A DNA stretch of 64,000 bases from Phocaeicola intestinalis (GTDB lineage: Bacteria > Bacteroidota > Bacteroidia > Bacteroidales > Bacteroidaceae). Of this stretch, positions 12,276 through 50,606 are shown piece by piece (position 1 is the stretch's first letter; each line of letters opens with the position of its first letter). The stretch covers positions 1 through 64,000 of the forward strand of contig NZ_JACSPP010000010.1 in assembly GCF_014837065.1 (NCBI RefSeq), written 5' to 3'. The translations under genes and the position numbers were made by a program. Below the pieces are notes generated by a model, which was given only the letters and a program-made list of their open reading frames with translations, searched no databases and was not told the DNA's origin.

Positions 12276-12407
12276 TTGAAACGCAGATTATTTTAATTTA
12301 CGATTTGACAATTTACTATCTACTATTGGGCATTAAATCGTACTTCGTAAATCGAAAAATAGTAAATCAAAATAATCTGTGTTAATCTGCGAAAATCTGT
12401 GTTTCAA
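12276..12407. repeat. Nested palindrome of AAACGCAGATT type between gltD and asnB
   Basis: Outer arms begin TTGAAACGCAGATTA and end ATCTGTGTTTCAA. Inside is a second palindromic block (about 12296-12370, TTTACGATTTGACAATTTAC to ATAGTAAATC). The inner block recurs in reverse complement at about 37670-37745, again inside an AAACGCAGATT palindrome. Confidence 0.8.
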
Positions 12408-12450
12408 CCTCAACCCCCAAAAACTCACAAACTTAAAAACTCACAAACTT

Positions 12451-14142
12451 ATGTGTGGAATAGTCAGCATATTCAATATCAAGGAACAAACCAAACCGCT
12501 CCGCGACAAGGCACTTGCCATGGCAAAGAAAATACGTCACCGCGGACCCGACTGGAGCGGAATCTATTGCGGGCGGACCGCTATCCTTGCCCACGAGCGT
12601 TTGTCCATTGTCGACCCCCAAAGCGGAAAGCAACCCCTTTTCTCGCCCGACCATAAACAAATACTTGCCGTAAACGGCGAAATCTATAACCACCTGGACA
12701 TCCGCAAGCGGTATGCGGGCAAGTACCAGTTCCAGACGGGAAGTGATTGCGAGGTGATTCTTGCCCTCTACCGCGACAAGGGCATCCATTTTCTGGACGA
12801 ACTGAACGGCATTTTCGCCTTCGCCCTCTACGACGAAGAGCAGGACACCTTCCTTATTGCCCGTGACCCCATCGGCGTCATTCCCCTTTACATCGGCTAT
12901 GATGCCGACGGCAAGGTGTATTGTGCCAGCGAACTGAAGGCACTCGAAGGTTTTTGCGACCGCTACGAACCTTTCCTGCCCGGACACTATTACGATAGCA
13001 AGGAGGGAAAGATGACGCGCTGGTACACCCGCGACTGGATGTCGTACGATGCCGTAAAGGATAATCCGGCATCCGTGGAAGAACTGCGTGAGGCACTCGA
13101 AGCCGCCGTACGTCGCCAGCTGATGAGCGACGTGCCCTACGGTGTGCTGCTTTCGGGAGGGCTGGACAGCTCGGTCATTTCCGCCGTTGCCAAGAAATAC
13201 GCTTCCCGCCGCGTGGAAAGCAACGGGAAACAGGAGGCATGGTGGCCTCAGCTGCACTCGTTCGCCGTGGGGCTGAAAGGTGCGCCCGACCTGGCGAAGG
13301 CACGCGAGGTGGCAGACCACATCGGCACCGTGCACCACGAAATCAACTACACCATTCAGGAGGGGCTGGACGCCGTGCGCGATGTGATTTATTTCATCGA
13401 GACCTACGACGTAACCACCGTGCGCGCCTCTACGCCGATGTATCTTCTGGCACGCGTCATCAAGAGCATGGGCATCAAGATGGTGCTGAGCGGCGAAGGA
13501 GCCGATGAAGTGTTCGGCGGATACCTTTACTTCCACAAGGCGCCCGATGCGCGTGCGTTCCACGAAGAAACCCTCCGCAAGCTCTCCAAGCTCTACCTTT
13601 ACGATTGCCTGCGTGCCAACAAGTCGCTCGCGGCATGGGGCGTGGAAGGGCGCGTGCCTTTCCTCGACAAGGAGTTCCTCGACGTGGCGATGCGGCTCAA
13701 CCCTGCCGCCAAGATGTGCCCCGGAAAGACCATCGAAAAGAAAATCGTGCGCGAGGCATTTCAGGATATGCTCCCGGAAGGAGTGGCATGGCGCCAGAAA
13801 GAGCAGTTCAGCGACGGGGTGGGCTACAGCTGGATAGATACGCTGAAAGCCGTCACTTCGCAAGCCGTAAGCGACGAACAGATGGCACATGCCGCCGAGC
13901 GTTTCCCCGTCAACACCCCGATGAACAAGGAAGAGTATTATTACCGCAGCATCTTCGAGGAATATTTCCCCAGCGAGAGTGCCGCCCGAAGCGTGCCCAG
14001 CGTGCCCAGCGTGGCTTGCTCCACCGCCGAGGCGCTTGCTTGGGACGAGGCTTTCAAGAACATGAACGAGCCGAGCGGACGCGCCGTAGCAGGGGTGCAC
14101 GAGGAGGCATACGCCAAAGTTTCACAGGAATTAAGGAGTTAA
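12451..14142 (+). CDS. asnB: Asparagine synthase, glutamine-hydrolysing
   Basis: Makes asparagine from aspartate, ATP and glutamine. I start at 12451 because the amidotransferase nucleophile must be residue 2 (MCGIVSIFN); the frame is open further upstream only into the repeat. The glutaminase domain spans about 1-200 with the loops RGPDWSG and VNGEIYNH, and the synthetase domain has the PP-loop LLSGGLDSS near residue 235. At 563 residues it is close to E. coli AsnB (554). The last residues, ELRS, and the stop codon are encoded by a GGAGTTAA-type repeat, so the C-terminus looks remodelled by it. The context with gltBD fits nitrogen assimilation. Confidence 0.95.
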   Translation: MCGIVSIFNIKEQTKPLRDKALAMAKKIRHRGPDWSGIYCGRTAILAHERLSIVDPQSGKQPLFSPDHKQILAVNGEIYNHLDIRKRYAGKYQFQTGSDCEVILALYRDKGIHFLDELNGIFAFALYDEEQDTFLIARDPIGVIPLYIGYDADGKVYCASELKALEGFCDRYEPFLPGHYYDSKEGKMTRWYTRDWMSYDAVKDNPASVEELREALEAAVRRQLMSDVPYGVLLSGGLDSSVISAVAKKYASRRVESNGKQEAWWPQLHSFAVGLKGAPDLAKAREVADHIGTVHHEINYTIQEGLDAVRDVIYFIETYDVTTVRASTPMYLLARVIKSMGIKMVLSGEGADEVFGGYLYFHKAPDARAFHEETLRKLSKLYLYDCLRANKSLAAWGVEGRVPFLDKEFLDVAMRLNPAAKMCPGKTIEKKIVREAFQDMLPEGVAWRQKEQFSDGVGYSWIDTLKAVTSQAVSDEQMAHAAERFPVNTPMNKEEYYYRSIFEEYFPSESAARSVPSVPSVACSTAEALAWDEAFKNMNEPSGRAVAGVHEEAYAKVSQELRS

Positions 14143-14286
14143 GAAGTTAAGTCAATACTTTTACTAATGCTTCCACCAACAAAACTATTGGCTTAACTCC
14201 TAACGGAGCGTAGCGGAGTGATAACTCCCTTTTAACTCCTGATTGGCATTATTAATTATTAACTATTAACTATTAACTATTAATTA
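14131..14286. repeat. GGAGTTAA palindromic repeat and AT-rich heptamer array
   Basis: Starts inside the 3' end of asnB. Left arm TTAAGGAGTTAAGAAGTTAA, loop with CTTCCACCAACAAAACTA, right arm TTGGCTTAACTCC, then CGGAGCGTAGCGGAGTGATAA and another AACTCC arm to about 14247. From about 14250 to 14286 a TTAACTA heptamer is repeated up to the dapF start codon. Related copies: 19806-19997, 34746-35018 and, inside another element, 39791-39915. Confidence 0.8.
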
Positions 14287-15095: not shown

Positions 15096-15181
15096 CACCA
15101 CAGATTACACAGATTTTTATTGAACACAGAACCACAGAAACACAGAAGAATTTATTTTAATAATCTGTGTAATCTGTGGTG
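15096..15181. repeat. CACCACAGATTACACAG palindrome between dapF and dapL
   Basis: Arms CACCACAGATTACACAGATT and its reverse complement ending at 15181, with an inner ACACAGAACCACAGAAACAC stretch in the loop. The same family frames 16434-16624 and 39729-39981, and degenerate versions occur near 20541 and 58196. Confidence 0.8.
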
Positions 15182-16433: not shown

Positions 16434-16624
16434 CACCACAGAGGCACACAGAGTTTTTATTTATTGAATATCCGCAAACATCCCATGTAGGGGCATATCG
16501 CATACGCCCTGAAGACATCCACGTGGATTAGTTGACGTATTCGGGCGTATGCGATACGCCCCTACAAGGCAATTGGGTGAAATGCGGATATTCAAATTTT
16601 ATTTTTTTTCTGTGTGCCTCTGTG
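16434..16624. repeat. CACCACAGAGGCACACAG palindrome interrupted by a mobile repeat
   Basis: Outer arms CACAGAGGCACACAGAG (from 16434) and CTGTGTGCCTCTGTG (to 16624) flank the 133-bp element at 16463-16596 in the loop. This is most of the 371-bp gap between dapL and the next gene. Confidence 0.75.
16463..16596. mobile_element. 133-bp palindromic MITE-like element (TTGAATATCCGCA ends), copy 1
   Basis: Perfect 13-bp terminal inverted repeats TTGAATATCCGCA and TGCGGATATTCAA enclose a second palindrome whose arms are about GTAGGGGCATATCGCATACG and its complement. TTTTATTT occurs on both sides (16455-16462 and 16597-16604), a possible target duplication, though the site is low complexity. By eye it differs from the copy at 34836-34968 at three bases. 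It has no coding capacity, so it would need a transposase supplied elsewhere. Confidence 0.75.
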
Positions 16625-19805: not shown

Positions 19806-19997
19806 ATTAGGAGTTAGAGGGAGTTAAGAAGTTAAGGAGTTAAGAAGTTAAGGAGTTAAGAAGTTAAGGAGTTAAGAAGTTAAGGAGTTAAGCCAATACC
19901 TTCACTCCTGCTTCCACCAACAAAACTATTGGCTTAACTCCTAACGAAGCGGAGCGGAGTGATAACTCCTTTTAACTCCTTAACTCCTGATTGGCAT
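19806..19997. repeat. GGAGTTAA repeat with expanded 16-bp tandem array
   Basis: A 16-bp unit close to GGAGTTAAGAAGTTAA occurs about four times in tandem (to about 19890). The shared CTTCCACCAACAAAACTA loop and the TTGGCTTAACTCC arm follow, then AAGCGGAGCGGAGTGATAAC and a final CTCCTTAACTCC run. A piece of the AGTAAATCG family (about 20001-20033) follows, up to the DUF1893 start. Confidence 0.8.
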
Positions 19998-25341: not shown

Positions 25342-25535
25342 AGAAGCTGTTTTGAATTTCTCCAAAAAGTTTTTCTTGGCTTGATGTATCCTTTTTCGTG
25401 TGTGCTTTGGGCGATTTTTTGGTCCTTTTCGCTCCTGTTCTTCGTCAGATAGCCCGCTATCTTCCTCATCACAGAAGCGAAAATGCCTCAAAAACTCATC
25501 CCAAATCAGCGCACGATAAATTCAAAACAGCTTCT
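25342..25535. mobile_element. 194-bp MITE-like element with 18-bp inverted ends, copy 1
   Basis: Ends AGAAGCTGTTTTGAATTT and AAATTCAAAACAGCTTCT are perfect inverted repeats. The reverse complement matches 50413-50606 over the full 194 bp with three differences by eye. The interior, read leftward, is open for about 57 codons (DEFLRHFRF then CDEEDSGLSDEEQ) but lacks an ATG in this copy. The element lies between the glycosyltransferase promoter and the SDR stop codon. The sequence GAGAAACGGTTTTGAGAAGC extends its right end to that stop. Confidence 0.75.
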
Positions 25536-34745: not shown

Positions 34746-35018
34746 ATATTTAAGGAGTTAGAAGGAGTTAGAGGAGTTAAGGAGTTAGAAGAAGTTAAGC
34801 CAATACCTTCACGAGTGCTTCCACCAACAAAACTAATTGAATATCCGCAAACATCCCATGTAGGGGCGTATGGCATACGCCCTGAAGACATCCACGTGGA
34901 TTAGTTGACGTATTCGGGCGTATGCGATACGCCCCTACAAAGCAATTGGGTGAAATGCGGATATTCAAAAAACTATTGGCTTCTAACTCCTTAACTCCTT
35001 CTAACTCCTTAACTCCCT
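34746..35018. repeat. GGAGTTAA palindromic repeat split by an inserted element
   Basis: Left arm 34752-34800 is made of GGAGTTAGAAGGAGTTAGA-type units. The loop CTTCCACCAACAAAACTA is interrupted at 34835 by the 133-bp element. The sequence resumes AAAACTATTGGCTTCTAACTC and runs in CTCCTTAACTCCTTC units to the PAP2 stop codon. At 14131-14247 and 19806-19997 the same loop is uninterrupted. Confidence 0.85.
34836..34968. mobile_element. 133-bp palindromic MITE-like element, copy 2, with direct-repeat flanks
   Basis: Bounded by TTGAATATCCGCA and TGCGGATATTCAA, with the inner palindrome GTAGGGGCGTATGGCATACG and complement. AAAACTA stands on both sides (34829-34835 and 34969-34975). The two related repeat copies have this sequence once, so the insertion and a 7-bp (or 6-bp) target duplication can be read directly. 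Confidence 0.85.
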
Positions 35019-39728: not shown

Positions 39729-39981
39729 TTCACCACAGGATACAGGGTACCACACAGGAAAATATAATTGAATATCCGCATTTTCCCAACAAGGAGTTAA
39801 AAGGATTTATTTCAGGGAGTTAAAAGGAGTTAGAAGCCAATACATTAGTTCATGGAAGCCATAGCAAGACTATTGGCTTTTAACTCCTGCCGAAGGTATA
39901 ACTCCTTTTAACTTCCTCTTATACTATGGGCATTTTGCGGAATTCATAAAAATTTAAAAGGCTCTGTGTCCTCTGTGGTGA
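39729..39981. repeat. Three-level nested palindromic region
   Basis: The outer layer is CACCACAGGATACAGG at the left and CTGTGTCCTCTGTGGTG at the right. The middle layer is TTGAATATCCGCA (39768) with degenerate TTTTGCGGAATTCA (to 39946), the ends of the 133-bp element. The inner layer is GGAGTTAAAAGG units and TTTTAACTCC units (39791-39915) with a GACTATTGGC piece. It fills most of the 377-bp gap before the GH105 gene; I see no gene in it. Confidence 0.8.
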
Positions 39982-39993
39982 AAAATGATAAAC

Positions 39994-41253
39994 TTATTTC
40001 ACTAATTCGTATTCCAGGCAAGCCATGATGAAAGGGCCGATGGCTTTGCCTTCATTGTTCACGATGGTTACGTCTTTACCGCACAGGTAATAGTCGGGTG
40101 TACCGTCGCGCGAGGGATCTTTTGCCGGACCCAATCCTGCCGAACGGCAACTTTGGTTCAGGTTGATGGTGCCGTTTTCGTTGGTGGTGACAAAGGTTTT
40201 CAGCAATCCTTGGTATGCCTTTTCGGTTACGTCCTTATAGCTTTCGGGCAGGATGCCGAGGCGGATGCCTTTCAGATAAGCGTAGGTAAACATGCTCGAA
40301 GCCGAGGACTCCAGGTAATTGGCGATGCCGCATCGGCTTACGAACGAGTCGTCGTATTGCAGCAATTGGTACCATACGCCGCTCTCCCGGTCTTGCCAGT
40401 GTGCCAGTCCCTTGGCTACGGTATTTACGATGGTCTTCAGCTCATTGTAGTCGGGGTGCGACTGGGGCATCACTTCCAGTACGTCGACCAGTGCGGCGAA
40501 ATACCAGCCCATGCCCCGTCCCCAGAACTCTTTGGAGCAGCCTTTGTGAGGTTCGGCTTTGTTTGCCCAGAACGAGTTGGCGTCTTCGGGATTGGCAGAC
40601 CATGCGTGATAATACAATTGCTTGCCGGCATCGTAGGTATGGCGGGCGATGGTCTTGAACTGGTGCGCAATGTCGGTCCATGCCTTTGTATTGTTGGGGT
40701 CGAAGTTGGCTTGCCATTCGGCATAGAAGGCGGCTCCCATATAGAGGCCGTCCAGCCACATCTGTCCCGGATAGATATCTTTGTGGAAGAAACAACCTTT
40801 GGCATCGCCTGTCTGGATACGCGAATAGTCGTTCACCAGGTAATTGCGTAGCCAGTCGGCAGCCTTTTTGTAGCGGTCGGCATTGTGCGTGCCGTTCTGC
40901 TCGTCCAAGGCTTTTTCGTGGCGGTAAAGGGCGAAGAGCACCTTGCCCGAATTGATGTTGTCGATGTTCCCTTTCTTGAAGTTCTTGAAGGTGCCGTCGG
41001 GATTGATGGCGTTGTCAGCATATTCTTTAGCCCATTGGTAATAGTCGGCAGTCCAGTCGGCATACCGATATTGCTCGCAAAGGTTCAGGAGCGACTTTGC
41101 TACCAGCCCGTTCACGTAGTCCCACGATTTGCCGTGTGTCCATTGTTTGCCTTGCGATTCCGCCATGCGTTGCGAATAGCGCGTTTGCGCATGAGTGGAA
41201 AGGGTGCAGCAGGCGGCAAGAAGCAGGCATACGGCGCATACGAATGTTTTCAT
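39994..41253 (-). CDS. GH105 unsaturated glucuronyl/rhamnogalacturonyl hydrolase
   Basis: The 419-residue secreted (alpha/alpha)6-barrel enzyme has a signal peptide cut near TLSTHAQ. The signature GQMWLDGLYMGAAFYA carries the predicted catalytic D168, and RGMGWYFAALVDVLE near residue 240 is also typical of GH105/GH88. Such enzymes remove the unsaturated uronic acid left by polysaccharide lyases on pectin-like or related glycans. No lyase or SusCD pair is adjacent, so the substrate class is uncertain. It is upstream of nothing on its strand apart from the nested palindrome. Confidence 0.88.
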   Translation of the reverse strand: MKTFVCAVCLLLAACCTLSTHAQTRYSQRMAESQGKQWTHGKSWDYVNGLVAKSLLNLCEQYRYADWTADYYQWAKEYADNAINPDGTFKNFKKGNIDNINSGKVLFALYRHEKALDEQNGTHNADRYKKAADWLRNYLVNDYSRIQTGDAKGCFFHKDIYPGQMWLDGLYMGAAFYAEWQANFDPNNTKAWTDIAHQFKTIARHTYDAGKQLYYHAWSANPEDANSFWANKAEPHKGCSKEFWGRGMGWYFAALVDVLEVMPQSHPDYNELKTIVNTVAKGLAHWQDRESGVWYQLLQYDDSFVSRCGIANYLESSASSMFTYAYLKGIRLGILPESYKDVTEKAYQGLLKTFVTTNENGTINLNQSCRSAGLGPAKDPSRDGTPDYYLCGKDVTIVNNEGKAIGPFIMACLEYELVK

Positions 41254-50412: not shown

Positions 50413-50606
50413 AGAAGCTGTTTTGGATTTATCGTGCGATGATTTGGGATGAGTTTTTGAGGCATTTTCGCTTCTGTGATGAGGAAGATAGCGGGCTATC
50501 TGACGAAGAACAGGAGCGAAAAGGACCAAAAAATCGCCCAAAGCACACACGAAAACGGATACATCAAGCCAAGAAAAACTTTTTGGAGAAATTCAAAACA
50601 GCTTCT
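50413..50606. mobile_element. 194-bp MITE-like element, copy 2
   Basis: Ends AGAAGCTGTTTTGGATTT and AAATTCAAAACAGCTTCT. Inverse orientation to the copy at 25342-25535 and the same length. A short open frame from ATG 50439 (MIWDEFLRHFRFCDEEDS) crosses it. The frame is shared with the other copy, but the ATG is CTG there, so I do not call a gene. Confidence 0.75.

Follow-up and report, generated by a model that had tools for sequence, protein, structure and literature searches.

Layered palindromes between the genes of a gut Bacteroidales lineage are probably explained for the most part by MITE stacking, with one family-specific insertion hotspot

Nested palindromes in the window and in the sampled genomes

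The window analysed here is the opening 64 kb of contig C11, which is 84.9 kb long and belongs to the source genome (G000), a member of the Bacteroides/Phocaeicola group available as a draft assembly of 4.07 Mb in 162 contigs, so that assembly errors may be present at its loci. It was compared with a close relative assembled into four contigs (G025), whose identity to G000 is 98-99% in some blocks and 77-87% in others. Next to the coding region of a protein (39,994-41,253) whose nearest named relatives are found in Bacteroides sp. An322 (93%), Phocaeicola coprocola (84%) and Bacteroides ilei (83%), three palindromic shells occupy positions 39,729-39,982: from outside to inside, CACCACAG arms (family A), degenerate TTGAATATCC ends (family B) and GGAGTTA arms (family C). 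This order, written here as A{B{C}}, where X{Y} denotes Y enclosed by X, had been proposed by a first-pass annotation of the DNA and is borne out by the arm coordinates and by their pairing. The outer A arms, TTCACCACAG at 39,729-39,738 on the plus strand and CTGTGGTGAA at 39,973-39,982 on the minus strand, pair perfectly. The B ends lie at 39,768-39,788 (TTGAATATCCGCATTTTCCCA, plus strand) and, in a degenerate form, at 39,925-39,946 (TATGGGCATTTTGCGGAATTCA, minus strand), and enclose the C arms at 39,792-39,842 (GGAGTTA repeats and AGAAGCCAATA, plus strand) and 39,871-39,920 (minus strand), which pair at 95% between 39,814-39,832 and 39,899-39,917 and at 94% between 39,825-39,842 and 39,871-39,888.

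Two further loci of the window carry the same families in other arrangements, and the descriptions given of them previously, a reversed order at 34.8 kb and a B element in the loop of an A palindrome at 16.4 kb, were both confirmed. At 34.8 kb the arrangement is C{B}: C arms at 34,754-34,805 (plus strand) and 34,974-35,016 (minus strand) surround a loop whose right edge holds a B element (34,837-34,968, plus strand). At 16.4 kb it is A{B}: the A arms CACCACAGAGGCACACAGAG (16,434-16,453, plus strand) and TCTGTGTGCCTCTGTG (16,609-16,624, minus strand) surround a B element (16,464-16,595, plus strand) with TTTTATTT on each flank. Within B, both loci harbour a fourth shell that had been missed, a GTAGGGGCG hairpin (family D; in full, GTAGGGGCGTATCGCATACGCCC) whose left arm carries one change in each of the two copies and whose paired GTAGGGGCGTATGGCATACGCCC arms span 34,860-34,938 (plus strand) at 34.8 kb. 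D is carried by many B copies, and its loop may face either way with respect to the B ends that surround it (window 16,464-16,595; contig C74:4405), which indicates that the inner hairpins flip or were inserted either way. Folding of the three loci as single-stranded DNA gave z-scores of -6.97, -13.9 and -14.6, and none of 200 dinucleotide shuffles of each locus folded as well as the real sequence, excluding chance for the three loci.

The wider occurrence of such structures was surveyed in a sample of 2.77 Mb from the two genomes, 1.19 Mb of G000 and 1.58 Mb (37%) of G025. Sampling was not random, since B ends guided the choice of 40 stretches of G000 and 12 of G025, and the list of B matches that of the large G000 contigs; this affects the counts of B but should not favour loops. 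Of 1373 intergenic regions, 456 contained a palindrome, compared with a single one once the regions had been shuffled in two-base blocks. Palindromes were most frequent in convergent gaps (126 of 223), less so in tandem gaps (279 of 919) and least so in divergent gaps (51 of 231). Nested palindrome pairs numbered 62, against 33.8 (s.d. 4.8) expected from lengths, an excess that is inflated because some nests were copied as units and orthologous loci were left in the count; of the other pairs, 112 lie side by side, four cross and three have one member in an arm. Family A and its companion A2 (AACGCAGATTAACGCAGATT) form the commonest outer shell (25 of the 62 nested pairs), and 62 of 88 A/A2 palindromes stand in gaps devoid of any of the eleven families searched. 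In an unsystematic look, the arms of A, A2, C and further palindromes were built from short units repeated imperfectly in tandem, and target duplications were not seen around them. The exact A 20-mer has 57 matches in G000 and none in the 295 other genomes of a draw from the phylum, a draw with no same-genus relative in which diverged copies were hardly covered.

Mobile elements within the layers

Families B, E, F and H, all of which take part in the stacking, behave as MITEs, that is, they contain no gene and leave target duplications. The B family is delimited by TGAATATCCGCA ends, the 10-base end having 39 + 41 exact matches in G000, and is represented in the sample by 65 paired copies of 30-320 bases with at most two end mismatches. 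Near-repeats of 7-11 bp, representing an A/T-rich target duplication, flank 30 of these 65 copies, against a mean of 3.8 and a maximum of 10 in 200 shufflings of the flank pairs. Outside palindromes, the density of B rises from 0.02 to 3.65 per kb with the A/T content of the surrounding 16 nt. Family E (GAAGCTGTTTTGAATTT ends), with copies in the window at 25,343-25,534 (TCA on each flank) and 50,414-50,605 (both plus strand), shows identical flanking triplets in 50 of 61 copies, 49 of which read TNA; TNA triplets also flank 14 of 17 copies of H (GAGCCTGTTTAAA), and 20 of 24 copies of F (TAGT..ACTA ends) have TA on their flanks.

E has a likely parent, as G000 contains an IS5-family transposase gene (L291; NF033580 score of 227.5 bits against a cut-off of 110) between E-like ends with up to four of 17 bases changed. 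The TNA duplication fits a subgroup of IS5 elements. In both its ends and its duplication E resembles known IS5-type MITEs, and no difference from them was seen. A search for transposases bearing B, F or H ends found none, and by eye none of ten translated genes situated between widely spaced ends (seven for E, two for B, one for F and none for H) appeared transposase-like. We infer that B, F and H are likewise moved by transposases. By description only, the four families can also be likened to the BrickBuilt MITEs of Porphyromonas gingivalis, gene-free intergenic repeats of another Bacteroidales genome; the word nested is absent from the main text of the BrickBuilt paper (PMC5771137).

Several observations establish that inner MITEs entered palindromes that already existed. 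At 34.8 kb the B element is flanked on each side by AAAACTA, and in two sister copies of C at 14.2 and 19.9 kb (14,135-14,240 and 19,810-19,987, both plus strand) the loop (...CACCAACAAAACTATTGGCTT...) is uninterrupted. An A palindrome at 15,096-15,181 (plus strand), serving as a comparison copy, has a loop free of B, E, F and H. At contig position C66:27401 G000 presents A{B{D}}, while G025 presents the same nest with an additional F element, which contains A-like arms of its own, is bounded by TA on each side and sits at the inner edge of the A arm. More generally, the two genomes differ by insertions of F, H, G and E that lie within nearly unchanged flanks. Elsewhere (C86:19691), an E element of G000 apparently lies within the arm of an AAGAATT-type palindrome, at a site that is empty in G025. 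Thus, of the earlier suggestion of repeated insertion into loops, the part concerning insertion stands on target duplications, uninterrupted sister loops and the polymorphic F element, whereas a general preference for loops is unsupported, as detailed below.

These features fit an account in which the shells would be layers of unrelated repeats gathered in one intergenic gap. MITEs, of which B and F pick A/T-rich sites, would find suitable targets in the gaps between genes and above all in the loops, rich in A/T, of the abundant A/A2 palindromes (CACCACAGATT.., AACGCAGATT..), where such sites are available and no gene is harmed. Each landing would split a palindrome and leave outer and inner arms, and the resulting composites, B{D}, B{C} and A{B{C}} among them, would then be copied as units and exchanged between strains as cassettes, giving rise to more nested forms. 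Nesting is therefore best regarded as probably the product, for the most part, of MITE stacking in A/T-rich intergenic DNA followed by unit copying and cassette exchange.

Proposed preference for loops in general and for A/A2 loops

The first-pass annotation had proposed that the centre of a hairpin or cruciform is a preferred target. In a within-gap test, insertions were excised, palindromes were sought in the restored gap and the insertion positions were compared with all positions of the same gap. The 153 insertions tested (B 51, E 60, F 24, H 17, G 1) remained after removal of 28 B calls with weak ends, three in genes, one at an edge and four duplicates, and include two orthologous pairs (B at window 16,465 and G025 3,166,634; E at C85:116,939 and G025 1,164,582). 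Loops received 28 of them, against 24.6 expected under uniformity (p = 0.21) and 24.5 after matching for A/T content and motif (p = 0.195), and arms received eight, against 14.3 and 12.0, respectively. By family, loop hits numbered 8 for F, against 3.7 (p = 0.009, uniform) or 4.5 (p = 0.029, A/T-matched) with four families tested, 12 for B, against 8.7 (p = 0.095) or 9.2 (p = 0.13), 7 for E, against 7.7, and 1 for H, against 4.5. In a smaller first sample the corresponding figures were 12 against 6.5 (B), 6 against 3.2 (F), 3 against 4.6 (E) and 1 against 2.8 (H); the B excess shrank in the larger sample and that of F stayed.

When density was computed by class (143 insertions in 1351 gaps), 116 insertions fell outside any detected palindrome (0.43 per kb), six in arms, 17 in A/A2 loops (3.86 per kb), two in C loops, one in a loop of MITE type and one in loops of other palindromes (0.10 per kb). 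A further test compared sites of like A/T content after 65 duplicate regions had been discarded, which left 1301. In the loops of A/A2 palindromes (CACCACAG/AACGCAGATT), six B elements were found against 1.20 expected (p = 0.0015; about fivefold) and five F elements against 0.47 (p = 1.3e-4; about tenfold), with no clear excess of E and H taken together (2 against 1.12, p = 0.31). A coarser stratification with duplicates still included gave 8 against 1.25 for B, 6 against 0.45 for F and 3 against 1.72 for E+H. In the loops of all other palindromes four insertions were found against 5.8 expected (B 2 against 1.93, F 1 against 1.24, E+H 1 against 2.64). Even scatter over arms, loops and single-copy DNA, the outcome named in advance as contrary to a loop rule, was not seen either, as A/A2 loops are enriched for B and F.

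In the same stratified test arms were hit at the background rate (6 against 6.0; B 2 against 1.29, F 0 against 0.82, E+H 4 against 3.86), and a shielding of arms by selection is accordingly unsupported. Two other tests returned fewer arm hits than expected (within-gap, 8 against 12.0-14.3; motif-based, 0 against 2.8-5.0).

A rule by which the centre of any hairpin or cruciform attracts insertions could draw on the enrichment of A/A2 loops for B and F after A/T control, on the excess of nested pairs (62 against 33.8, uncorrected for copies) and on the position of insertions within A/A2 loops, which tend towards the middle (mean offset of 0.34 against 0.5 for a uniform distribution, in 17 events of which three are orthologous repeats). 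Such a shape-based rule should, however, make other hairpins hot as well, since non-A/A2 and A/A2 palindromes are similar in median arm and loop length (20/25.5 and 22/31 nt, respectively) and the lower A/T content of the former's loops (0.60 against 0.76) was allowed for; the shortfall in those similarly sized loops, the totals over all palindromes (28 of 153 against 24.5), the background rate in arms and the lack of a clear excess for E and H all argue against it. The proposed rule fails in general and is very unlikely to hold. Taken together, the three tests leave a general hairpin rule unsupported and support a rule for one palindrome family.

In gaps whose A/A2 palindrome was detected by a second, motif-based method, 16 of 24 insertions were placed in the loop, against 7.7 expected after weighting for distance, A/T content and motif (p = 7.5e-5), none in arms, against 2.8 expected, and eight outside; by this method E is also found in A/A2 loops (6 of 8). 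Another count gave 26 insertions inside (10.9 expected), seven outside and two in an arm; its p-value is disregarded because one locus was counted four times and interrupted arms escaped the arm search. At sites with 9-10 of 10 A/T bases, B and F together reach 10.8 per kb in A/A2 loops (12 hits, including two orthologous repeats and one near-duplicate), against 1.33 per kb outside palindromes in other gaps and 0.65 per kb (one hit) in the rest of the same gaps. A/T content therefore fails to explain all of the excess in A/A2 loops. Harmlessness alone would not give a reason for insertion into A/A2 loops rather than into those of other palindromes, which counts against MITE stacking as the complete explanation.

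One conceivable cause of the remaining excess is that a bound protein, a local structure or the arm sequence attracts B and F to A/A2 palindromes. These would then be shared landing pads on which unrelated gene-free elements, B with a duplication of about 10 bp and F with one of 2 bp, home in independently at five to ten times the A/T prediction, and would act as safe docking sites concentrating transposition between genes. This idea is attractive inasmuch as the A/T-controlled excess is limited to A/A2 loops, the motif-based method agrees, flanks and duplications differ between most of the loop events, and G000 by itself shows four hits in 1.35 kb of A/A2 loop, against 0.48 per kb outside palindromes. 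On the other hand, the A/A2 family was singled out post hoc, after its outer position had been seen, and the hotspot comprises 11 B and F events, all counted in G025 after removal of duplicates; two of the 11 occur in G000 as well, and the six B events include one pair of near-duplicates (3,192,331 and 3,194,951). In addition, E and H do not clearly follow in the A/T-stratified test, a sequence preference finer than A/T content may remain, and the two methods disagree on some events: the B insertion at G025 1,424,805 is outside by the motif-based method and in the loop by the A/T-stratified test, and E at G025 877,740 and C82:10,121 is in the loop by the motif-based method only. We consider dedicated landing pads doubtful.

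Copying and probable exchange of nests and comparison with known systems

Nests also spread whole, as the focal A{B{C}} recurs at C117:19325-19603 in an alignment that runs through both outer arms. Exchange between strains was approached through 610 gaps of G000, 44 of which have both flanks in the G025 sample at an identity of at least 94%. The flanks are adjacent in G025 for 40 of these gaps, 25 gaps are of equal length, and in at least seven (window 10,814, 12,269, 14,143 and 15,088; C66:28,135; C96:120,381; C85:63,620) the palindromic cassette is wholly or partly different, presumably through exchange rather than independent change. A separate comparison of C97:4604 with the block at G025 562001 revealed a three-shell nest in G025 and the loss in G000 of about 100 bases between TTTTTCTT repeats, probably by deletion within the nest.

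Larger rearrangements involve the same repeats. A block of genes some 14 kb long (window 6.2-20.4 kb; G025:C1:3151525-3168092) is inverted and circularly permuted in G025, where it occupies the slot of the focal nest. Its right junction lies within the A arms of 16.43 and 39.97 kb, and on its left a spacer of about 0.47 kb, containing an E element and half an arm of A type, lies between the block and the A arm at 39,738; the arrangement resembles the outcome of a circle recombining into the site via an A palindrome. Synteny is also broken at the C palindrome of 34.75-35.02 kb.

It could accordingly be argued that nests are built by recombination, with ectopic exchange or gene conversion between repeats swapping loops and moving composites, and with transposition in a minor role. 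The permuted and inverted block with its junction in A arms and the recurrence of the focal nest as a unit are in keeping with this, as are the similar arms with different loops in G000 and G025 at window 12,290-12,418 and a B element at C72:7884 whose left half is like B{C} and whose right half is like B{D}, making it a likely recombinant. Most nested MITEs, however, have target duplications and distinct flanks, which require transposition, and a predominantly recombinational origin seems unlikely. In the preferred reading, MITE stacking, exchange acts on nests that insertion has built.

Insertion at the axes of REP sequences is already known. ISPsy8 and ISRm22 are located at the symmetry axis of REP sequences, and IS1397 and IS621 target the REPs of E. 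coli, so that in these cases too mobile elements lie within dispersed palindromes; there, a full insertion sequence enters its own REP type at a fixed point (PMC1525189), whereas here gene-free MITEs enter variable A/T-rich loops at varied positions. REPs within longer palindromes have been described for A. variabilis GTAG-15, H. neapolitanus CGTC-1 and T. roseum GTAG-23, and resemble the present nests in that a palindromic repeat lies inside another and that D is GTAG-tagged. They differ in that for two of those three families no outer palindrome lacking the REP was found (PMC3733652), in contrast to the A/A2 palindromes standing in gaps without any searched family, and in that several unrelated families nest here.

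Inner and outer arms could also belong to a single REP family moved by a Y1 (TnpA-REP/RAYT) transposase, as D begins with GTAG followed by a hairpin, the hallmark of one REP superfamily according to the same study (PMC3733652). The Y1-type REP transposase described in another report (PMC8266576) has no match in G000, searched as its 162-contig assembly. Searches with Y1_Tnp returned no match in G000 or in seven of the eight relatives and one in G025, and a RAYT origin for all families was rejected on these grounds. Moreover, B, E, F and H make target duplications and, to our knowledge, single-strand Y1 elements do not. This origin is extremely improbable. The single Y1-family gene of G025 (L288, G025:C1:3112897-3113244) lies between arrays of AACCTC-AAGAGGTT palindromes and possibly represents a REP/RAYT system. 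A search of open-licence papers found none, among the matches listed, that names these families or multi-shell nests in Bacteroidales, and a search with the letters of the motifs gave, among the matches listed, papers unrelated by title.

The nests are thus real and mostly explained by MITE stacking, with one family-specific hotspot. In this gut lineage, the palindromes between genes form layers, move and vary from strain to strain despite nearly identical flanking genes, and the presence of A-type repeats at the borders of a moved block suggests that they may shape gene order as well. A general rule of insertion into any hairpin gives way to a narrower, testable one for A/A2 palindromes; if their loops are truly docking sites, they would constitute natural safe harbours for insertions in relatives of Bacteroides and Phocaeicola.
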